Below, piece after piece: positions 15,385-26,151 of a stretch of 64,000 bases of DNA; the first letter of the stretch is position 1; the number at the start of each line of letters is the position of its first letter. Origin of the DNA: Phycisphaerae bacterium (GTDB lineage: Bacteria > Planctomycetota > Phycisphaerae > Phycisphaerales > UBA1924); contig JAEUIW010000002.1 in assembly GCA_016794925.1 (NCBI GenBank), positions 62,001 through 126,000 of the forward strand, in the 5' to 3' direction. The position numbers and the translations under genes were made by a program. The notes under the pieces are model-generated. The model ran no database searches. It was not told the DNA's origin and worked only from the letters and a program-made list of their open reading frames with translations.

Positions 15385-15978
15385 TTGATCGACAACAAGG
15401 TTGGCGCTTCGCCCGGCCCGTTGACGGTTCGCGGCGCACAAGGCGGACTGGATTCGGAGTCATTTGCCCTTCTTTACGAGAAGCACGCGAAAGCCCTCTG
15501 GGGAATTGCTGCGGGCGTGCTGGGTGATCGAACCCTTGCCCACGACGTCGTCCAGGAAGCTGCCATGATCGCGCTCGACAAGCTCAACTCGTTCACACCC
15601 GGAACGAGCTTCGTCGCGTGGATGGGACAGATTGTCCGCTTTGCCGCCCTCAACGAGCGACGTCGTGGCGTGGCCCGGCCGCAACAACCCCTCGTGGAGA
15701 GCGGGGCGGCCTTCCCGGCCGATCGCCCGGGCAGCCGCGTGGCAAAGGAGGACGAGTTCGAGACGCTCGTGAGACCGGCATTGGCGGTGCTGGACGAGAC
15801 CGCTCGAACCTGCCTCGTGCTGCGACTGGCCAACGGAATGTCGTACCAGGACATCGCGGCGGCGCTGGGAATCCCGGAGGGCACGGCCATGAGCCACGTC
15901 CACCGCGCGCGCAAGTCGTTGCACGAGGTCGTCACGGCGAAACGGCGCCACGCATCCGCCGGGCGAGAGCGCGCGTGA
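15385..15978 (+). CDS. ECF-type RNA polymerase sigma factor
   Basis: A 197-residue sigma-70 family protein. Region 2: FALLYEKHAKALWGIAAGVL then LAHDVVQEAAMIALDKL, with WMGQIVRFAALNERRR as the promoter-melting helix. Region 4: LDETARTCLVLRLANGMSY then DIAAALGIPEGTAMSHVHRA, a helix-turn-helix. The first usable start in frame is TTG 15385; a stop lies at 15343, and no ATG occurs before region 2. Its stop overlaps the GTG of the next gene (GTGA), giving translational coupling to a membrane-anchored partner, the standard sigma/anti-sigma layout. ECF factors usually autoregulate; no promoter motif could be assigned. Confidence 0.87.
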   Translation: MIDNKVGASPGPLTVRGAQGGLDSESFALLYEKHAKALWGIAAGVLGDRTLAHDVVQEAAMIALDKLNSFTPGTSFVAWMGQIVRFAALNERRRGVARPQQPLVESGAAFPADRPGSRVAKEDEFETLVRPALAVLDETARTCLVLRLANGMSYQDIAAALGIPEGTAMSHVHRARKSLHEVVTAKRRHASAGRERA

Positions 15979-16787
15979 GCGACTTCGCACCCACTCCGAC
16001 GCAGGACTTCCCGTCTTCGGGGGATAATCTGGACCCGCGGATCCCGTTCGTCCTCGATGGAGCGCTCAAAAACGAGGAACTGGCCCGTTTCGAAGCGGAT
16101 GCGAAAGCGAGTCCGGTTCTGCGCGCGCAACTCGACACGCAGCACGACATCGATCGAGCCATACGTTCCATGTTCCGTCCGCCCGAGGGGATCACCCTCA
16201 CGACGCACCTGCCGTACACGCTCCATCCGGCAGCAACGTCTCGCAGGCCGATGTGGCGGCTTGCGATCTACGCCGCGGCCGCCATGGTGCTGCTGGTCTC
16301 GGCTGTGGCGGTCAGGCAATCCGTGCTCGGGCCAGAGTTCAAGGTCCTGACGCCGTCACAGCTCTTCAACCGCCTGGAATCCAGCGGTTTCAAGCCGGAA
16401 TTTGTGTGCACGACCGACGACGCCTTTGCGCACACCATCCGGGAACGCTTCGGACAGGCCCTGCTGGTTCCGGCAGCCAAGCAGGTCGCCTCGGGTGGAT
16501 CGATTGAACTGACCGGATGGGCGTACGCCGACGGGTACAACGGCAGCCCGATCTCGCCGAGGACCCTGATCCTGCTCGCTCGTGAGCACGGGCAAGACGT
16601 TGTGGTGCTGATCGATCGCCACGACGCGGACCGAACGGTCGCCCCGCCCGAGGACGGCACGTTGTCGGTGCATCGGCGCCGGATCGGCGATCTTGTGGTG
16701 TACGAGCTGCGCCGCAGAATCGTGTCGGCCGAGAGCGGAGCCGAAGGTACGGTCGCCGCCGCCTTGTTTGATCCTGACTCCCGCTGA
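15975..16787 (+). CDS. Single-pass membrane protein, putative anti-sigma factor
   Basis: A 270-residue protein starting at GTG 15975, which overlaps the sigma-factor stop. An acidic N-terminal cytoplasmic segment (RIPFVLDGALKNEELARFEA) resembles the helical start of zinc-less anti-sigma factors. One membrane helix (LAIYAAAAMVLLVSAVAV, about residues 96-113) is followed by an extracytoplasmic domain of about 155 residues. That domain has a DUF-like alpha/beta pattern: FNRLESSGFKPEFVC, then LTGWAYADGYNGSPISPRT, ILLAREHGQDVVVLIDRHD and HRRRIGDLVVYELRRR. No HxxxCxxC zinc motif is present. The anti-sigma role is inferred from coupling and topology. The RseP-like protease at 3.4-5.5 kb could in principle process such a protein. 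Confidence 0.72.
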   Translation: MSDFAPTPTQDFPSSGDNLDPRIPFVLDGALKNEELARFEADAKASPVLRAQLDTQHDIDRAIRSMFRPPEGITLTTHLPYTLHPAATSRRPMWRLAIYAAAAMVLLVSAVAVRQSVLGPEFKVLTPSQLFNRLESSGFKPEFVCTTDDAFAHTIRERFGQALLVPAAKQVASGGSIELTGWAYADGYNGSPISPRTLILLAREHGQDVVVLIDRHDADRTVAPPEDGTLSVHRRRIGDLVVYELRRRIVSAESGAEGTVAAALFDPDSR

Positions 16788-16824: not shown

Positions 16825-19800
16825 TCACTCCCCGCAATCCATGCGATCGCGCGCGCGTCGCTTGGCTGCCATGAGCGGACTCTGGTCGTTGTCCGGCGCG
16901 CCCGTTCGCTCGGGCTGAGTTTTCTCGCTCGATGATGGAGCCACGGACAGGGGAGCTTCCGGGGCTCGGGCACCCCCGGCCGCGCGCGCGGCACGACGCA
17001 GCGACTGGTGCTCGCGCGCAATCTGTCGGGCGTCTGCTTCGCCAAGCATCGCGGCGCCACCGCCGGGGGGGGCGCTCCCCGCCGCGCCCCGCTTGCCGCG
17101 CAAGGAGGCAAGCCGACCCACGGTCTCGGCCCCGCGTTCACGGAGCGACGCGAGCACGCTCCGCTCGGCCTCGGATCGGAATTCGCGCGCGATCAGCCGG
17201 TCCCAGGCGATCCGCCGCGTGCCCACGTCCAGGAGCAGCACGCACACCGAGGCCACAAGCAGTGAGGGCCAGAGCGGGGAACGAGCTTCAACGGGCCTTG
17301 CGAAGGATGGGTCAAATATCCCTCGTTCGGGCGGATTGTCGATATCGAGCAGTCTTCCTCCCGTCGCGCGCGCGATCGAAGCGAGAAGACCGACGTTGGA
17401 ACGAAGCGCCCGGAGCTCGCCGCCGGGCGGTCGGACCGCACCGGCGATCGCGGGGGCGAGGCGCGTGGCGCCGGCACGCGGCGCCGCCGTGACCACGTAT
17501 GCACCCGAATCCTCGGCCGGAACGGATCCGGTGTACTGACCAGGGCCGACTTGAACGAGCCGGGACTCGATACGCTTGCCGGTGGGGCCGAACACGGTGA
17601 CGGGCACGTTGAGCAGGTCGATGGGTCGCCCGTCCTCCTGCACCGCCTCGGCGCGGATCCGCAGAACGTTCCCCACGATCGATGACGTCATGTCCAGCGT
17701 GCGACCGATTCCCGGTCGGGCGACCGAGCGAGCGATCTGCGTCCAGAGCCGGCCGTACCCCTCCCACTCAAGCCATGGCGAGGCCCAACGTTCGGCGTCG
17801 GAGGTGAACGCCGCGACCCTGCCGAGCCCGACGTTCCACGAGGCCAGGAGGGGCTCGCCCTGAGGTGTGAGCATCGACAGGGCGATGCCCGGGTCGCGCC
17901 TGGCCTGCGTGAGATTCACGCCAGTCAGCCGAGGGACCGCACCGATGCCTTCGACCACTGACGACGCGCCGGGGATGAGCACGGGATCGAACGGAGCCAG
18001 ACGCACCATGGGCGTTCGCACCACACGAACGGCCTTGAGGAACACACGGGGCAGGACGTTCGGGTCGGTCACCTGAAAGAACTCGCCCCCGCCGTCGCGG
18101 GCGATCCGCTGCATCGCGGGCAGGTCCGCGCCGTCGCCGACGGCGATCGCGGAGACCGTGATCCCCTCGGCACGCATTCCGGCGACGATCGCGGGCAGCT
18201 CGTCGCGGCCGTGTGACTGACCGTCCGAGAGCACCACGACGTGCTTGATCTGTGCGTCGACCCTGGCGAGCGCGGCGCGGGCGTCGCTGAGGGCCGGCGG
18301 CATGTTCGTGCCCCCGCCGGGCGCGATGCCGCGCACGGCGTCGGCGGTGCGGTCCGGATCTGTGTTCTTGTGCAGCGGGACGACCTCCTCCGAACCCGAA
18401 TTGAACGCGTACACGCCCACGAGGTCGTTCTTGTCGAGTGTGCGGAGCGCCATGGCGGCGCCCTCGTTGGCGATCTGTTGCTGGGATCGGGAGGAGCCCA
18501 TCACGCCGCGCGCCATTGACCCGGAGTTATCGAGCACGAAGACAACCGCTGCCGCGGAGACCACCAGCTTCTCGGGCAGGTCGAGCCGAACGGGGAGGAT
18601 GGGCTCGATGTCCGTGCCCTTCCAGGCGCCCGCCCCGAAAGAGTCCGGTCCACCGAGCATTACAAGGCCGCCCCCGAGGTCCGTGACGTAGGAGGCGATC
18701 GCGCCGTGGGTCTGGCGTCCGAACGCGTCGGCCGGTACGTTGTCGAGAATGACGAGGTCGTACGCCTGCAGACCGACAAGGTCCGGTGGAACCCCTGTGA
18801 ACGGCCGCACCACGACGTCCATGCCCTGCGCGGCGAGGAGGCGGGCGAGCGGCGAAGCCGCTTCCGCCCCGGGCGCGGCCTGTCCATGCACGCCGTCAAC
18901 GATGAGCACCGCGCCACCCCCGGGCGTGACGGTGAACGCCTCGGAACGCAGCGCCGCGGCGGGGGAGAGGTTCGCGTATGCGCCCTCGGGCTCAAAGACG
19001 GCCTCAAAGCGATGCACGCGACCGGGACCGAGCCGCGCATCAACGGCCTGGATGTTGAGGCCGCGGCGCAGTTCAATGTTACGAGGTCCCAGTCCGTCTC
19101 CACCGGGGTTCAGGATCGGTTCACCGTTGTAGAGCACGCTCAACCGACCTCGGACCGGGTCCGAGGCCTGGAGCGCCACCCGGAGGCGGATCACCGATCC
19201 GGCCGGCGCCTGCGAGGGTGCGTCGAGCCCTTCGATGATGACGCTGTCACGACGCGCAAAGGCCAGCGGGACGATGTCGATCGGGGTGCCGATCGCCTCC
19301 GAGGCGGCCGGAGCGCCGCCGCCAGTGAGCTCCCGGGCCGCCGCGAGCGCGTCGCCCGTGGTCTCGTTGCCGTCGGAGAACAGGACCATGCGACGGGTGG
19401 CGTCGGGTGGAAACAGGGCGGCGGCAAGCCGGATCGCGCCTGCGAGGTCCGTGCCTTCGGAGCCGGAGCCGGCGGCGCCTCCCGGGGGTTCGAATGGGCG
19501 GTCGAGCACATCGACCGCGGTCGGCGTCGCCACGACGGCCGCTCTTCCGTCGAAAACCACGAGCCCGAGCTGGTCATCCGGGCGGCGAGCCGCGGCGGCC
19601 GCGCGCAGAAAAGCCCGTACACGCGTCAGCGGATCGCTGCGGGCGCCGGATTCAGAATCAACCTGGGGCACGAAACGGCGCACGGATTCGGACACATCGA
19701 TCACCGCGACCACGGACAACCGCTCGGTTCTTCGGATGGCGGTCAGCCCCGCCAACGCCAGGGCCAACAGGCTCGCGAGCACGATCCTGGCGACGATCGC

Positions 19801-19917
19801 GCTCCAACGCCGAACGGAGGACATCGCGGGAAACGTCTGCCGGGCCGCGAACAGGGCAGGGATCGCCGCGAGGGCGAAAATGGCCAGCCACCAGGGCTGC
19901 TCGAGACGAAGGTCCAC
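16825..19917 (-). CDS. Large membrane protein with two VWA domains and a glutamine-amidotransferase-like domain
   Basis: About 1030 residues. GTG 19917 gives VDLRLEQPWWLAIF; a TTG at 19932 is an alternative, and neither has a clear ribosome-binding site. Two N-terminal membrane helices (WWLAIFALAAIPALF; IVLASLLALALAGL) are followed by a first VWA-like domain with a DVSES metal motif and LVVFDGRAAVVATP. A class I glutamine-amidotransferase-like fold follows (YDLVILDNVPADAFG, GGGLVMLGGPDSFGAGAW), lacking an obvious nucleophile Cys. A second, better conserved VWA domain carries DNSGSM, the GGGTNMPPAL threonine and VVVLSDGQSHGRDE. One more membrane helix near residue 900 (LLVASVCVLLLDVG) precedes an Arg/Ala-rich cytoplasmic tail. 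It is last in a leftward four-gene operon starting with a sigma factor. Confidence 0.85.
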   Translation of the reverse strand: MDLRLEQPWWLAIFALAAIPALFAARQTFPAMSSVRRWSAIVARIVLASLLALALAGLTAIRRTERLSVVAVIDVSESVRRFVPQVDSESGARSDPLTRVRAFLRAAAAARRPDDQLGLVVFDGRAAVVATPTAVDVLDRPFEPPGGAAGSGSEGTDLAGAIRLAAALFPPDATRRMVLFSDGNETTGDALAAARELTGGGAPAASEAIGTPIDIVPLAFARRDSVIIEGLDAPSQAPAGSVIRLRVALQASDPVRGRLSVLYNGEPILNPGGDGLGPRNIELRRGLNIQAVDARLGPGRVHRFEAVFEPEGAYANLSPAAALRSEAFTVTPGGGAVLIVDGVHGQAAPGAEAASPLARLLAAQGMDVVVRPFTGVPPDLVGLQAYDLVILDNVPADAFGRQTHGAIASYVTDLGGGLVMLGGPDSFGAGAWKGTDIEPILPVRLDLPEKLVVSAAAVVFVLDNSGSMARGVMGSSRSQQQIANEGAAMALRTLDKNDLVGVYAFNSGSEEVVPLHKNTDPDRTADAVRGIAPGGGTNMPPALSDARAALARVDAQIKHVVVLSDGQSHGRDELPAIVAGMRAEGITVSAIAVGDGADLPAMQRIARDGGGEFFQVTDPNVLPRVFLKAVRVVRTPMVRLAPFDPVLIPGASSVVEGIGAVPRLTGVNLTQARRDPGIALSMLTPQGEPLLASWNVGLGRVAAFTSDAERWASPWLEWEGYGRLWTQIARSVARPGIGRTLDMTSSIVGNVLRIRAEAVQEDGRPIDLLNVPVTVFGPTGKRIESRLVQVGPGQYTGSVPAEDSGAYVVTAAPRAGATRLAPAIAGAVRPPGGELRALRSNVGLLASIARATGGRLLDIDNPPERGIFDPSFARPVEARSPLWPSLLVASVCVLLLDVGTRRIAWDRLIAREFRSEAERSVLASLRERGAETVGRLASLRGKRGAAGSAPPGGGAAMLGEADARQIAREHQSLRRAARAAGGARAPEAPLSVAPSSSEKTQPERTGAPDNDQSPLMAAKRRARDRMDCGE

Positions 19918-19969
19918 GCCGCAAGCGTACAACCGTATTGACCGCGGGGAGGACTGGTGTCACGCCCGA

Positions 19970-22768
19970 CTACTTCGCGTCCGGAGCCGAGGGCACGGGG
20001 CGAGCGGGCGGCCCGGGAACGGCCGGGTTCGCCGGCCGGAGGATCCCGTCGTCGAGACGTTGGAAATACCGGCGCACGTAGCGGTCATAGCGGGCGGGCA
20101 CCGATTTTTGTTCGAGGGCTCGCTCGGCGCTACGCTGGGCCTCACGGAGCAATTCCGCGGGTTCGGGGGCCGCTGTCGATACGCTGCCACGATCGGCCGG
20201 CTGCTGCGAGAGCCATTCGGCCACCACGCGCTCACGACCGGGATCTCGGCCGCCTCCATCCGCCCCGGTCCGGCGCGCATCCACGTTGCGCACCCTTGGC
20301 GCTCCGGGCTCGACGGCCGGGGCGCGCGAGCGATCACGCTCGGGGACGGGAGGAGTTGCGACATTCGCGCGATCCGCCGTCGCCTGGTCGCCCGGCCCGC
20401 CCGTCGCCGTGCCTGGCGCGCCGGTCGCGGAGCCTGACTCGCCGTGTGGCGCATGGGCTTCTCGGGCGAGCGCTTCGCCGAACCGTTCAAGCTCGCGCCG
20501 CTCTTCGGGGGTTCGCTGCTCCAGCATCTGGCGGGCTCGCCGGCGAAAGTCCTCTGCCGTTTGGCGACCCGATTCGCTCTGTTGGGCTCGATCGGTCATG
20601 CGTCGCATCGTTTCCTGGAGCCTCTCGATCGCCGTGGGCTGCGATGGGTCGGGAGATGGGAGCCGCTCGGTTTCGCTCGCATCCGAGCCCTCGGGAGCTC
20701 GATCCTGATCACGACCGGCTGGTCTGGAGGAATTCTGACTCGCCGGAGGCCTTTGCCCTGCGGGAACGTCTGGACGCGCGGCGGGCCTCGGAACTCCGGG
20801 AGCCTGAGAGTCCTGAGCGTCTGAGGGAGCCCCCGCCGCACTTGGCACTCCGGCATCGGGAGCGCCCGACGGCCTCGTGGCGGAATTGCCTGAATTCGGG
20901 GTGCTCGGGGGAGCGTCTTTCTTCTGGTTGGTGTTCTGCGGTACGGTCGTTCCGGGCTGATTCAATTGACCGGGTTGCTGCGAAGATGGCCGAACCCCCT
21001 CACGACTTGGATCTTGATTGGAGGTAGGTTTCTCGGAAGCCGTTCGACCGGATGGGTAGAGCTGAGGATCGTCGGCGGATCCGCGAGGGTCGCTGGGCTT
21101 GGCCTGTGGGGAGTCCGACGGTTTGATCTCGCTCGGACGCTTGCTGGCGGCCTCGGGTGTTCCGCCGCGATGGGACGGGCTGCGGCCCGGGCTCGAGCCC
21201 GTGGGTTCCGCGACGGGCGTGGATTGAGTCGGCTCCGAGCGGGCGCTCGGCGGCTCCCGCCGCTCCTTGGTCGGTGATGATTGAGAAGGAGGCTCGTTTG
21301 GACCGCGAGACGGCTGGGCCGCTTTCGGAGAATCGCCGGGGGGCGTTTGACGTGAAGAGTCTGTTGGATCGGAGGTCGCGGAGTCCTTCGAAGCACTATC
21401 CTGCTTAGTTGGTTCGGAGGGTCGAGGCAATGAGCCGCGTTCTTCGGGATCGGGTCCGCGCCTGACGACGTCGGCAGCCTCTCGAAGACGCCGCGCCAAT
21501 TCGTTCACCTCACGATCGGAGGCCTGGCCGGCTTCGCGCCGCTGCCGATCGCGGTCGATCCGATCCGCAAGATCGGCGGCGGCTTCCGGCGTCGCGCCGA
21601 CTCTCCGGAGCTCCCGCGCCGCCTGGTCGGGGCCGCCGAGCTGCTCGATCTCGCGCCGTCGATCGGCGTCGATACCCAATTCGGAGAGGGCCCGATCGAG
21701 TTCCGCGTCGTGCGCGGGACTGCCCGGCGACGCTCCATCCTCACGAGATTCGCCGAGTGCGGCGAGGTCGTCCGCGAGGCGTTCGAGCTCTCGGGCCTCT
21801 TGCTCGCGTTCCGCCGGATCGGCGTCGGGACCCAGTCCCGCGAGACGATTGCCCGCCTCGGACGCTTCCGACAACCGCCCCGATCTGAGCGCTTCCCGAA
21901 GTGCGGACGCCGGAGAATTCAACGCCGGCGCGGCGGGAGGAGGCAGCGCGGCAAGCTTCTCCCGCACGGCGGCGTCGCGGCTCGCGTCCCGCTCGCTGGC
22001 GACTTCTGTCTGCGTGGCGATGCGGTCGAGGATCGCCGCGCTGCGGTCGCGCGCGACAGAGGGGTCACCGTCTCCGCGGGCGAGCTGCTGGTGGATCTCC
22101 TCGAGGGCGCGGACCTGCTCGGGGGTGGCGGCGGGTGGGGCTCGGTCTGGATCGCGGGGAGCGGTGAGGGACTCGGTCGCGCTCGCAAGGGCATCGGCCA
22201 ACGCCGACGCGCGGACTTTCGCCGCGGCGACCTCGGGCGCTTGCTCCGCCCAGACACGAACGACCGGAAGTCGCCAGGCTGCCGTGGCAAGGAGCCCGCA
22301 CGCGAGCACACCAATTGCGAGTCGGCGGGAGTCGGGCAAGGGGATGGCGCGGCGAACATCTACGGATCGTGCCGCGCGCTCGGCGTCCGCGAGCGCCAGC
22401 CGGACAAAGCCGGGGTCGTTGACGCCGACGGGTGACGCGTCGCTCGTGGGTGCGACCCGTTCACGCCACGCCAGGGCGGACGCGACTCGGTCCTTCAAGC
22501 CCAGTGTCCGGTCCATCTCGTGCGCGACGGCGTCGAGACTGGGCGACCGGAGCATGGCCATCGTGAGCGCAATCAAGACCGCGGCCGCGACCGTCGCTCC
22601 CACCGCGATGATCCGCTCGGCCGGGGAACGTTCAAACGCGATCGAGGCGACCAACACCAGCGAAGCGGCTGCGCCGGCCCAAGGGAGGCCGTTCGACAGC
22701 GATGTCAGCAGCGAGCGAATTCGCGCACGCCTGCGCCCCGCGACGAGGATCCGAGCGGTTTCGTTCAC
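19970..22768 (-). CDS. Long, largely disordered membrane protein (DUF4175-like N-terminus)
   Basis: A 932-residue protein. Two adjacent membrane helices (LPWAGAAASLVLVASIAF; IIAVGATVAAAVLIALTMAM) are followed by a conserved-looking segment with EMDRTLGLKDRVASAL, a third helix near 180 (LAIGVLACGLLATAAW), then long helical and low-complexity regions. Residues about 450-780 are extremely rich in Ser, Pro, Thr, Arg and Glu, with runs such as PSDSPQAKPSDPRGSADD. The C-terminus returns to charged helices (RYDRYVRRYFQRLDDGI). The N-terminal layout resembles DUF4175-like proteins found next to VWA proteins in Planctomycetes. Stop and start spacing to both neighbours is under 40 bp, supporting one transcript. 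No enzymatic motif is visible; a scaffold role is a guess. Confidence 0.75.
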   Translation of the reverse strand: MNETARILVAGRRRARIRSLLTSLSNGLPWAGAAASLVLVASIAFERSPAERIIAVGATVAAAVLIALTMAMLRSPSLDAVAHEMDRTLGLKDRVASALAWRERVAPTSDASPVGVNDPGFVRLALADAERAARSVDVRRAIPLPDSRRLAIGVLACGLLATAAWRLPVVRVWAEQAPEVAAAKVRASALADALASATESLTAPRDPDRAPPAATPEQVRALEEIHQQLARGDGDPSVARDRSAAILDRIATQTEVASERDASRDAAVREKLAALPPPAAPALNSPASALREALRSGRLSEASEAGNRLAGLGPDADPAEREQEARELERLADDLAALGESREDGASPGSPAHDAELDRALSELGIDADRRREIEQLGGPDQAARELRRVGATPEAAADLADRIDRDRQRREAGQASDREVNELARRLREAADVVRRGPDPEERGSLPRPSEPTKQDSASKDSATSDPTDSSRQTPPGDSPKAAQPSRGPNEPPSQSSPTKERREPPSARSEPTQSTPVAEPTGSSPGRSPSHRGGTPEAASKRPSEIKPSDSPQAKPSDPRGSADDPQLYPSGRTASEKPTSNQDPSREGVRPSSQQPGQLNQPGTTVPQNTNQKKDAPPSTPNSGNSATRPSGAPDAGVPSAAGAPSDAQDSQAPGVPRPAARPDVPAGQRPPASQNSSRPAGRDQDRAPEGSDASETERLPSPDPSQPTAIERLQETMRRMTDRAQQSESGRQTAEDFRRRARQMLEQRTPEERRELERFGEALAREAHAPHGESGSATGAPGTATGGPGDQATADRANVATPPVPERDRSRAPAVEPGAPRVRNVDARRTGADGGGRDPGRERVVAEWLSQQPADRGSVSTAAPEPAELLREAQRSAERALEQKSVPARYDRYVRRYFQRLDDGILRPANPAVPGPPARPVPSAPDAK

Positions 22769-22807
22769 GGTTTATTGTACGAGTCAGCAGGCCGGATGGA
22801 TCGGGGC

Positions 22808-25369
22808 CTATCGGTCCCCGCGCACAATCGCGGGCAACGCCGCGCGGAGCGAGGCGGGGCAACGTTTGGCCGGAACAAACCACGTAAGGGACCGATCCTG
22901 ATCGTTCGGGTTGCGTGCGATCCAGAGGACGGCCCCGGGGCGAGCGAGGTCGGCTTCGAGCCAGCGGGCGATTACCTGCCGGGCGTCGTCCGAGCCGGCT
23001 GGGATGAGCCCAAGGGCCTGCCTGAGCGAGGCGACGAGCGCCGCCTCACGTTCGGTGATCGAGCGGTCGCTGCTTCGGCCAATCCCCACGAGTTGCACAC
23101 CGGCGGCCTGGAGCGCGGCGATCGTGCGGTCCGCAGAGCCGGCGTGCGCCGGGCTCGAATTGAATGACTCACGCAACACCAGCACGGGCGTGCGACGGAT
23201 CTCATCCGAGAGACTTGGCGCCGTGGGGGAGGGAGTCGGTGATGCCGTCTTCACCACGGACATCGCGGCGCTGACCGCGTTGTCGAAGTCCTCCGCGCTG
23301 GCCTGACCGGCCTGAGTGAGCGCTCGCTTGATCTCATCGATCACGCGCCGGGTTGAGTCTTCGAAGCCCTGGATGCTCTGTTTCAGGACCTTCGTGTCGG
23401 CGAACGGAATACCCCGGGACGACCACGCCTCGGTATCGCCCGGGACCAGGAACACGGCGGATTCATCGGTAGCGGGGACCGGGTCGATGGGGTCGGCGAA
23501 CGCGAATTCCGAGGCGGATCTCACGATCGCCTGGTCCGCGGCACGGTGCAGGCGTTCCGCCGCGATGAACGACCAGCCCGCGAGACCGCCGACGGCAATG
23601 AAAATCAGAACGGCACCGACCATGCCCGCGTTGATGCCGGCTGGCCCTTCGGTGGCACGTTCGCGACGTTGAGCCTGGCGGCGCGACGCTCGATCTCGCA
23701 GCGCCTCGGCGCGTCCCCTGGCGCTGGCAAGTTGCTCGTGTGCGGGGCGACGGGGACGGCCCGCCGGGGCGCCGCCCACACGGATATTCCCGAGACCCAC
23801 TCCCACGACGGCGGAACGTGGCCCGGCAGCCGGGGCAGGAGGGGCCGGGCGCGGGGACCCGCCCACGCGACCAGGATCCACCTCGATTCGTCCGCTCCAC
23901 CAGTCCACCAATCGGATGCGCGGCTTGGCGCGTGCGCCGGGCGTTGGGCCGGGCGGTACAGGGGAACCTGCGACGGCATCGGGAACGGCATTCCGCCGTG
24001 GCGCGGCAGCGAACGGCGGCAAGGGCGGCGGGTCCGCAGCGGGGACGGGAGGGACATATCCCTCGCGGGTCGAGGGAAGATCGGCGGGCCGGATCGCAAA
24101 GGGATCGACCGCGTTGAGCACGACACTCAGGTCGGCCAGCACGGCTTGTGCGGAGGGATATCGCTTGTCGTAGTCGGCCATGGCGCGTCGGATGATCCAG
24201 CGGATCGCTTCCGGGCAAGGCTTGGTCACCTGCGACAATCCGCCGTGGGCGGGGAACGAATTCTCAATGATGGAAAAGAGCACGGCGCCGACGGCGTAGA
24301 GATCGAACTTCGCGCCGTCCACCTCGTGAACCTTGACGCCCTTGAGCGCCAACCGCACCATCTCGGGGTCTCGGAAATACTCCGTGCCGTGGGTGGTCAG
24401 TGTCATCGATGACCGCAGCGGCGTGAGCAGGCCGAAGTCGACAAGGTGGGCCCGGCCGTCATGAACGATGATGTTGTCGGGTTTGACGTCCTTGTGCCAG
24501 AGTCCGGCACGGTGATAGGTGTCGAGCGTGGAGAGCAGATCCCGGACGTATCGCATGGCCTCGCCGAGTCCGCCGCCGCGCAGGCCATCCGCGCCGGCCT
24601 GCCCGTGCAGACGCTGCGTGACGATGCCGAGGGAATCGCCGGGAACGTACGGCATGACGTAGAAGAACCGCTCGTCGGTGAGCTCGTGATCGAGAACCAG
24701 ACCGAGCTTCTTTGCGGCGTCGAGTGCGCGCGATTCGCGCACGATTTGCGGCAGCGAGGAACCGTCCTTGAGCGAGAATGCCTTGATGACCACCCGGCCG
24801 GGGTCTACGAACCCGCAGCGCTCGAAGACGGCACGCTTGATGGGATCCGCGTCCGCGATGTACAACTTCCCGCCGGAGCCGCCGCCGGGCAGCGATCCGA
24901 CGATGGTGTAGCCTTCGAACTGACCCACGCGCTTCGGGGGCGTGTCGCGCCCCGGAGCGGCGTGCACAACTTCAGGAACCCGGTTCTCGATCCCCTCCGT
25001 TAGCCCCGTCAGGCACAGCAGACGCGCCGGGTGTCCGATCGCCATCCGATAGAGGCACAGCCCCGCGGTCCTGCACTCCGACTGGATCGCACGCCCGAAG
25101 TGCGAGGCCGCCGACCACCGCCCGATGACAATGTTGATGACCGTGAGCGGGACGAAGATCGCGGAGACCACGACGGTTCCGAGCAAGCGGGCCGCGTCGC
25201 CGATCTCGCCGAACACGAAGCCGAACACGCGCCCGAGAACAAAGCCGACGGCCCGGAACACGATCGAGAGGCCCTTGGAAATCACCACGACGATGATCCC
25301 GAAGAGCAACCCGATGACCAAGATGCTGGCGATCAGTGCGAGAATGATGAGGGCTGGGGATGTGCTCAT
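22808..25369 (-). CDS. Transmembrane Ser/Thr protein kinase with extracytoplasmic sensor-like domain
   Basis: An 853-residue protein. Residues 1-83 are strongly hydrophobic with at least two membrane helices. The kinase domain spans about 155-425: glycine loop GSLPGGGSGGKLY, Lys in VVIKAFSLKDG, catalytic loop HKDVKPDNIIV (HRDLKPxN variant with Asp kept), metal loop VDFGLL and GTEYFRDPEM in place of APE. A Pro-rich linker follows. Then comes a membrane helix near 590 (MVGAVLIFIAVGGLAGWSF) and about 245 extracytoplasmic residues with alternating strands and helices (PVLVLRESFNSSPAHAGSAD, LQAAGVQLVGIGRSSDR) that weakly resemble a VWA/Rossmann-like fold. The sigma-factor gene lies 29 bp upstream, the disordered protein 39 bp downstream. 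It probably senses envelope conditions and phosphorylates partners encoded beside it (inference). Confidence 0.87.
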   Translation of the reverse strand: MSTSPALIILALIASILVIGLLFGIIVVVISKGLSIVFRAVGFVLGRVFGFVFGEIGDAARLLGTVVVSAIFVPLTVINIVIGRWSAASHFGRAIQSECRTAGLCLYRMAIGHPARLLCLTGLTEGIENRVPEVVHAAPGRDTPPKRVGQFEGYTIVGSLPGGGSGGKLYIADADPIKRAVFERCGFVDPGRVVIKAFSLKDGSSLPQIVRESRALDAAKKLGLVLDHELTDERFFYVMPYVPGDSLGIVTQRLHGQAGADGLRGGGLGEAMRYVRDLLSTLDTYHRAGLWHKDVKPDNIIVHDGRAHLVDFGLLTPLRSSMTLTTHGTEYFRDPEMVRLALKGVKVHEVDGAKFDLYAVGAVLFSIIENSFPAHGGLSQVTKPCPEAIRWIIRRAMADYDKRYPSAQAVLADLSVVLNAVDPFAIRPADLPSTREGYVPPVPAADPPPLPPFAAAPRRNAVPDAVAGSPVPPGPTPGARAKPRIRLVDWWSGRIEVDPGRVGGSPRPAPPAPAAGPRSAVVGVGLGNIRVGGAPAGRPRRPAHEQLASARGRAEALRDRASRRQAQRRERATEGPAGINAGMVGAVLIFIAVGGLAGWSFIAAERLHRAADQAIVRSASEFAFADPIDPVPATDESAVFLVPGDTEAWSSRGIPFADTKVLKQSIQGFEDSTRRVIDEIKRALTQAGQASAEDFDNAVSAAMSVVKTASPTPSPTAPSLSDEIRRTPVLVLRESFNSSPAHAGSADRTIAALQAAGVQLVGIGRSSDRSITEREAALVASLRQALGLIPAGSDDARQVIARWLEADLARPGAVLWIARNPNDQDRSLTWFVPAKRCPASLRAALPAIVRGDR

Positions 25370-25398
25370 GCCTGGCCTTCCACGACGCGTCCGACGGT

Positions 25399-26151
25399 CT
25401 AGCGGCGGGTGGCCGACTCGTCCTCGCGACGGAGCTCGGCCTGCTTGTGGAAAATCTCGCCGATCGCCTCGTCGAACAGGGCGTCGTCGGCCTTATTGGG
25501 GTTGAGGGTCAGCCCGTTTCGCTCCGCCTCCTGGCGTTCCTCGTCGGTGAAGGAATACGTGGAGATCACTTCCGCGAGCCGGGCCCGGAGCGCCTCACGC
25601 ACGCGGGCCAATCGTCGCGAGATGGTCGGCTCGGACATGCCCAGGGAGGCCGCGACGTCCTTTCCCGGCTGGTTCTCCAGCACGCGCATTCGGTAGATCG
25701 AGTAGTCCACGAACTCGCATTCCTTCTCAACTATCCGCAAGGCCGCTTCGACCTTGGAGCCAAAGACCGCGGCCTCGTACGCCGCGTCCGCACCCATGGT
25801 GGCGGAGGCCGTCATCCACGATTCGTCGAATTCCGCCGCTTTCTTGCTGGAATTTCGCTTCTTCGCACCCCGCCGATCCAGTTCATCGCCGAGCACGTGC
25901 TTGGCAATGGCGAGCAGCCATGTGGAAAACCTGGCACCCTTCCCGGGGTCATATCGATCGATCGAATCGGACAGCGCGGCCATTGTTTCCTGGGAGAGGT
26001 CCTTGACGGTTTCGGAACCGATCCGCCCTCTCCCCCACTTCGAAAGCTGGATGCGCAGGACCGGCCCGAACGTCTCCCAGAGGTCGAACCATGCCGCCTG
26101 GTCTTGGGCGCGCAAACGTGCGATAAAACTGCTGGTGACCGGATGGAGCAT
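25399..26151 (-). CDS. ECF-like sigma factor with C-terminal extension, linked to a Ser/Thr kinase
   Basis: About 250 residues from ATG 26151 (MLHPVTSSFIARLRAQD); a GTG at 26163 is an alternative. Region 2: WFDLWETFGPVLRIQLSKW, then VKDLSQETMAALSDSIDRYD and FSTWLLAIAKHVLGDELDRR. Region 4: the segment around YRMRVLENQPGKDVAASLGM, then SEPTISRRLARVREALRAR. About 55 residues extend past region 4 (SFTDEERQEAERNGLTLNPN to the end), rich in Glu, Asp and Arg. No anti-sigma gene is adjacent; instead a transmembrane Ser/Thr kinase follows. Planctomycetes are known to have ECF groups linked to such kinases, where phosphorylation may replace anti-sigma control. It is the first gene of the operon. Confidence 0.82.
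   Translation of the reverse strand: MLHPVTSSFIARLRAQDQAAWFDLWETFGPVLRIQLSKWGRGRIGSETVKDLSQETMAALSDSIDRYDPGKGARFSTWLLAIAKHVLGDELDRRGAKKRNSSKKAAEFDESWMTASATMGADAAYEAAVFGSKVEAALRIVEKECEFVDYSIYRMRVLENQPGKDVAASLGMSEPTISRRLARVREALRARLAEVISTYSFTDEERQEAERNGLTLNPNKADDALFDEAIGEIFHKQAELRREDESATRR

Follow-up and report, generated by a model that had tools for sequence, protein, structure and literature searches.

A predicted kinase-switched ECF sigma factor with a divergent coiled-coil partner, beside a separable DUF4175-like/VWA gene pair, in Phycisphaerales

Direct activation of an extracytoplasmic function (ECF) sigma factor by a protein kinase is known for EcfP/PknT of Vibrio parahaemolyticus and EcfK/PknS of Xanthomonas citri, and in the group ECF43 a phosphorylated threonine in the sigma2.2 contact motif supplies a missing charge (PMC8999054, PMC13147305). 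For the planctomycete groups ECF59, ECF61, ECF62 and ECF217, phosphorylation by a neighbouring kinase has been predicted (PMC8999054). Kinase-linked planctomycete ECF factors are known already, and the reviews consulted give their groups and no targets. In this study, we analysed such a factor in a 64,000-nt stretch of DNA (the window) from a Phycisphaerae bacterium, contig JAEUIW010000002.1, whose genome of 3.66 Mb is about 95% complete. The locus probably consists of two units that stand side by side: an ECF envelope-stress regulator switched by a kinase and accompanied by a coiled-coil partner, and a separable pair of genes encoding a DUF4175-like membrane protein and a VWA/GATase protein (Table 1). 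A predicted promoter and an envelope-stress-like gene set give this kinase-linked ECF factor a concrete, testable function. The named relatives used for comparison are metagenome-assembled genomes of Phycisphaerales and other planctomycetes.

The sigma factor belongs to the ECF family (group 4): it has sigma2 and sigma4 regions, scores above cut-off for TIGR02937 (56 bits) and for Pfam Sigma70_r2, and finds its best fold matches in the AlgU, SigW and sigmaE structures. We placed its start at 26151 and left a longer open frame, to 26373, unused because relatives align from residue 1. Sigma factor and kinase lie side by side in 70 of 73 loci, with the catalytic motifs of the kinase conserved, and this unit is shared by several Phycisphaerales families. 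Next to the sigma gene there is no anti-sigma gene (an unlinked one was not sought) and the kinase stands there instead, in agreement with the preliminary description of the locus. The kinase region, approximately residues 150-420, contains the conserved motifs HKDVKPDN, VDFG and HGTEY; hydrophobic segments occupy residues 1-46, 59-85 and 575-605. Beyond the last of these the C-terminus varies among relatives, which would fit a diverse sensor region.

In having an ECF factor beside a transmembrane Hanks-type kinase, no adjacent anti-sigma gene and a threonine in the sigma2.2 motif, the locus resembles ECF43. The DxxDxxQE region reads T48-V-[RK]-D-L-S-Q-E in nearly all orthologues, with T48 and D51 invariant (53-54 aligned). 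Given that a phosphothreonine supplies the missing charge at this motif in ECF43, T48 is a candidate phosphosite on the basis of the alignment. The two nevertheless differ, since the ECF43 motif is an uncharged QTTA or STTA with the threonine third, whereas the window sigma factor has T-V-[RK]-D, with the threonine first and one aspartate kept, together with a long C-terminal extension and a different predicted regulon. Because T-V-[RK]-D is neither QTTA nor STTA, we did not assign the factor to ECF43. With ECF59, ECF61, ECF62 and ECF217 it shares the description of a planctomycete ECF factor whose neighbouring kinase is predicted to phosphorylate it; beyond what is described for those groups, the window system adds a coiled-coil gene in divergent orientation and a predicted target promoter.

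This divergent gene, overlooked in the preliminary description, is the most constant neighbour of the sigma gene after the kinase, being adjacent and divergent to it in 70 of 80 named loci, and the trio of sigma factor, kinase and coiled-coil protein extends to other Phycisphaerales families (L041-L046). Conserved, tight gene order can therefore mislead: here the divergent gene is the constant partner, and the genes behind the kinase are a separable unit. Two records that hold this Phycisphaerales locus, L188 'Leptolyngbya sp. PLA1' and L196 'Cyanobacteria bacterium CYA', are probably mislabelled.

A bipartite motif directed toward the coiled-coil gene, TGAAAT-N13-TTCC[CG]AA..A, was present in 47 of the 54 regions upstream of the sigma gene; its general form is TGAAA-N15-TCC[CG]A...A. 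It lies mostly 50-130 nt before the coiled-coil start, and its position varies less with respect to that start than with respect to the sigma gene. The motif keeps its place ahead of the coiled-coil gene in three loci whose sigma gene is 3-4 kb off and in six loci with no sigma gene in the flank. Its persistence in these displaced-sigma loci marks it as that gene's predicted promoter, and the idea that the strong copy is the sigma gene's own was rejected on the same grounds. In L152, L167 and L174, approximately 3-4 kb separate the sigma and coiled-coil genes, and within this interval a further motif match lies at 6365 of L167. Weaker copies directed toward the sigma gene were found in 38 of 53 loci, compared with 1.35 on average and at most 4 for dinucleotide shuffles and 1 for the reversed motif. 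A motif-like match before the kinase gene (25493-25521, minus strand) lies inside conserved sigma coding sequence and was set aside as probable coding conservation. Before the DUF4175-like and VWA genes, no motif score reaches the 99% value of the null, which is strict because that null contains true sites; above a cleaner 99% value of 3.7 were 1 of 41 DUF4175-like regions and 2 of 41 VWA regions.

The pattern YGAAA-N15-TCCSA-NNNA has nine matches in the window's own genome against one for the reversed control, and TGAAA-N15-TCCSAANNA has 30 matches in 16 relatives against two for the control. Besides the coiled-coil protein, the genes downstream of the matches encode small membrane proteins that share a conserved REIAAYVAEGS tail, in the own genome and six relatives, one of these proteins having a sub-threshold SHOCT-like match; SppA, in two genomes, where partial reads match TIGR00705 at E 3.7e-64 and 7.4e-61 but score below its curated cut-off; an SPFH protein (Band_7_1, E 4.3e-95); in the own genome, a bPH_2 protein (L109); a DUF4870 protein followed by LptB in two genomes; an HlyD-type adaptor; and two membrane proteins that we read as NfeD-like and that have no match in Pfam. 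Three tandem small membrane proteins with the REIAAYVAEGS...PD tail lie behind the motif on contig C122 of the own genome, near 33452 (L110:1557-2361). The identification of one small SHOCT-like protein as PspB was dropped, as no alignment was obtained.

The -35 box of Bacillus subtilis sigmaW is TGAAAC, and YdbS and YdbT are bacterial-PH proteins. The window motif has a similar TGAAA box, whereas its second box, TCC[CG]A, differs from CGTA in sigmaW promoters. SigmaW controls sppA-yteJ, pspA-ydjGHI, ydbST and yuaF-floT (PMC3498285), and flotillins and PspA are membrane-protection proteins (PMC8144471). As in a sigmaW-type regulon, a shared promoter motif stands before membrane-protection genes in the genomes studied here, of the kinds SppA, SPFH (YdjI-type) and bacterial-PH, and the envelope-to-transcription role proposed in the preliminary description fits this predicted regulon as an envelope-stress role. 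Where sigmaW has the anti-sigma factor RsiW, the window system has a kinase, and no membrane anti-sigma gene adjoins the sigma gene. In the mechanism that we propose, the kinase would sense envelope damage and phosphorylate the sigma factor, and the active sigma factor would take RNA polymerase to TGAAA-N15-TCC[CG]A...A promoters, raising the output of the coiled-coil protein (its predicted main target), of small SHOCT-like membrane proteins, of SppA and of proteins of the SPFH and bacterial-PH kinds; in many relatives it would also raise its own. The result would be a sigmaW-like envelope-stress response with a kinase standing in for the anti-sigma factor.

The coiled-coil protein has a single N-terminal hydrophobic segment (residues 7-29), and its AlphaFold model is a long helical hairpin (mean pLDDT 77). 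In this shape near the membrane, and in its place in a predicted membrane-stress regulon, it is similar to PspA/Vipp1, from which it differs by the N-terminal hydrophobic segment. Vipp1/PspA structures appear among its fold matches alongside other coiled coils at a non-significant E of ~0.01, PspA_IM30 is absent from the families listed for 42 members, and hhalign against E. coli PspA gave a probability of 0.4%. Neither profile, hhalign nor fold comparison established it as PspA, a protein that the sigmaW regulon does contain. A bolder version of our reading is possible, although we hold it to be rather doubtful: an undescribed Phycisphaerales ECF group, in which the transmembrane kinase acts through the invariant sigma2.2 threonine and an ordered C-terminal extension of the sigma factor to switch a sigmaW/Psp-like membrane-repair regulon, the main product being PspA-like coiled-coil proteins of a new, membrane-anchored family and the VWA/DUF4175-like pair having been drawn into the operon where trpD, the gene discussed next, was lost.

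The four leftward genes of the preliminary description (sigma factor, kinase, disordered membrane protein and VWA/GATase protein) were confirmed from the open reading frames, with gaps of 29, 39 and 37 bp, the last of which had been put at about 50 bp. In the family of the window genome we surveyed 163 genomes from 74 genera, of which 154 have an orthologue of the sigma factor and 162 one of the VWA protein; all four genomes of genus g156 (G228-G231) are without a sigma match, unlike nearly all the family. Among 133 genomes with both genes placed, the VWA gene lies 5.3-9.3 kb downstream of the sigma gene on the same strand in 53 genomes from 29 genera, all of one Phycisphaerales family. This conservation far exceeds chance, so that the order passes the test of recurrence in related genomes that the preliminary description had set for it, and an impression of non-conservation from a first sample of relatives was overturned by the full-family survey. 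The order is at the same time separable: sigma and VWA genes share a contig but are distant or not co-directional in 8 of the 133, and 17 further genomes (a count of minus-strand cases) have more than 10 kb of contig downstream of the sigma gene and no VWA orthologue on that contig.

The sequence between the kinase and DUF4175-like genes was read in 40 linked loci and in G119 (n = 41). An antisense open reading frame, homologous among loci, fills the gap in 34 of them; it is the tryptophan-synthesis gene trpD (Glycos_transf_3, E 1.7e-73). By direct search, the two units have an antisense trpD between them in 35 of the 41 loci: 32 are clear cases, and in the other three the open frame of the DUF4175-like gene ran on across trpD. 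There is no intervening trpD in the window, G216, G186 (gap 257), G163, G159 and G119, and G293 has an arrangement different from both types. In loci without trpD the gap is mostly 36-58 bp. These contiguous loci are a minority and fall in several places on the tree of sigma factor, kinase and coiled-coil protein; in contiguous genomes trpD elsewhere is only 39-43% identical, or none was found. The sole trpD match of the own genome (G000:C244:10508-11506) shares 43% identity with the version that the family has at this locus, which suggests replacement rather than simple relocation. Repeated loss of trpD is the simplest history, insertion being the other formal possibility. Since trpD opposes the pair in trpD-type genomes, the DUF4175-like and VWA genes are most likely driven there by a promoter of their own; in the window, the second unit abuts the first because trpD is missing.

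The second unit itself has relatives elsewhere. The window membrane protein has no Pfam match to DUF4175 (PF13779), and only 1 of 20 orthologues has one, at E 0.0044, so the DUF4175-like label carried over from the preliminary description is a weak one. A second VWA/GATase paralogue is present in most of the family; in the own genome it is found on contig C311 together with MoxR, DUF58 and BatA. The earlier remark that MoxR and DUF58 genes are missing holds for the window locus, and such a cluster does exist in the genome. The window pair is thus paralogous to part of the MoxR-DUF58-BatA-VWA cluster but has no MoxR: its VWA gene stands without MoxR, DUF58 or BatA, and the DUF4175-like protein is its only partner. 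Judged by the families to which its proteins belong, the pair may act in the cell envelope.

Several points weigh against a kinase-switched regulator acting through the motif and standing apart from the pair behind it. What the sequences show is that the genes are conserved, that the two units can be separated and that the motif is enriched before the genes listed above; that the sigma factor reads the motif, that the kinase activates the sigma factor, and what signal is sensed, we infer; no clear sigma-directed copy was found in the window genome; 3 of the 16 relatives lack a strict pattern match; the predicted regulons overlap only partly between genomes, and several matches precede unknown genes. 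Partial loss of the sigma2.2 acids, also seen in other ECF factors of the own genome, is no clear mark of kinase control, so T48 is only a lead. In the window, no terminator-like site was found on the coding strand between the kinase and DUF4175-like genes, and with this tight packing all four genes are possibly co-transcribed in this species.

In a rival reading, the motif is read by another sigma factor, another ECF or a heat-shock-type one, which controls the coiled-coil regulon, with the sigma factor and kinase of the window being mere neighbours or co-controlled. A TGAAA box with a CCC-A second box resembles heat-shock-type promoters, and the motif persists where no sigma gene lies within 10 kb of the coiled-coil gene. 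We consider this unlikely, however, because the motif occupies the divergent region between sigma and coiled-coil genes and in most relatives also points toward the sigma gene, as in ECF autoregulation, while the frequency of the sigma factor in the family makes it likely that displaced-sigma genomes carry it elsewhere. Similarly improbable is a kinase that is negative or only modulating and phosphorylates other proteins, with the sigma factor ruled by its own extension, an unlinked anti-sigma factor or transcription. The C-terminal extension of about 55 residues is kept in relatives, with a helix predicted at 222-249, and is modelled as ordered helices rather than a disordered tail; extension-regulated ECF factors are known (PMC8999054), and the contact motif keeps D51. 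Against this stand the near-constant adjacency of sigma factor and kinase and the precedents EcfP/PknT and EcfK/PknS, which are activating. Least probable is the single four-gene pathway of the preliminary description, which would put the kinase in the place of an anti-sigma factor and make the DUF4175-like/VWA pair a substrate of the kinase or an envelope effector: it gains from the order kept across 29 genera and from the short gaps, but antisense trpD splits the halves in most order-keeping relatives, the halves are far apart in other genomes, the last two genes have no motif before them, and no result obtained here ties the disordered protein to the kinase.

Table 1. Features of the locus, in positions of the window
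Feature	Position	Strand	Basis
VWA/GATase protein, 1035 aa	16825..19932	-	Pfam: two VWA stretches and GATase1_like
Membrane protein with long low-complexity region, 932 aa; first gene of the separable second unit	19970..22768	-	
Transmembrane Hanks-type Ser/Thr kinase, 853 aa	22808..25369	-	Pkinase (Pfam), catalytic motifs
ECF-type sigma factor, 250 aa	25399..26151	-	Sigma70_r2, TIGR02937, ECF fold matches, family orthologues
Conserved C-terminal extension of the sigma factor, residues 197-250	25402..25563	-	alignment, structure model
Sigma2.2 RNA polymerase-contact motif T48-V49-K50-D51, in place of the usual DxxD	25999..26010	-	orthologue alignment
Predicted ECF-type promoter of the coiled-coil gene, TGAAATCGATCGACCCGAGTTCCCAACAA	26288..26316	+	motif, exact pattern match
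Membrane-anchored coiled-coil protein gene, 337 aa	26391..27404	+	adjacency to sigma in relatives, helical hairpin model

A role in anti-phage defence was also considered and rejected, the matches being generic kinase-domain ones (PD-T4-6 and others) and weak coiled-coil ones. A conventional pair on the plus strand (15385-16787), outside the kinase-linked system, converges on the end of the four genes; in it, a second ECF sigma gene (15385-15978) is followed by an apparent membrane anti-sigma gene.

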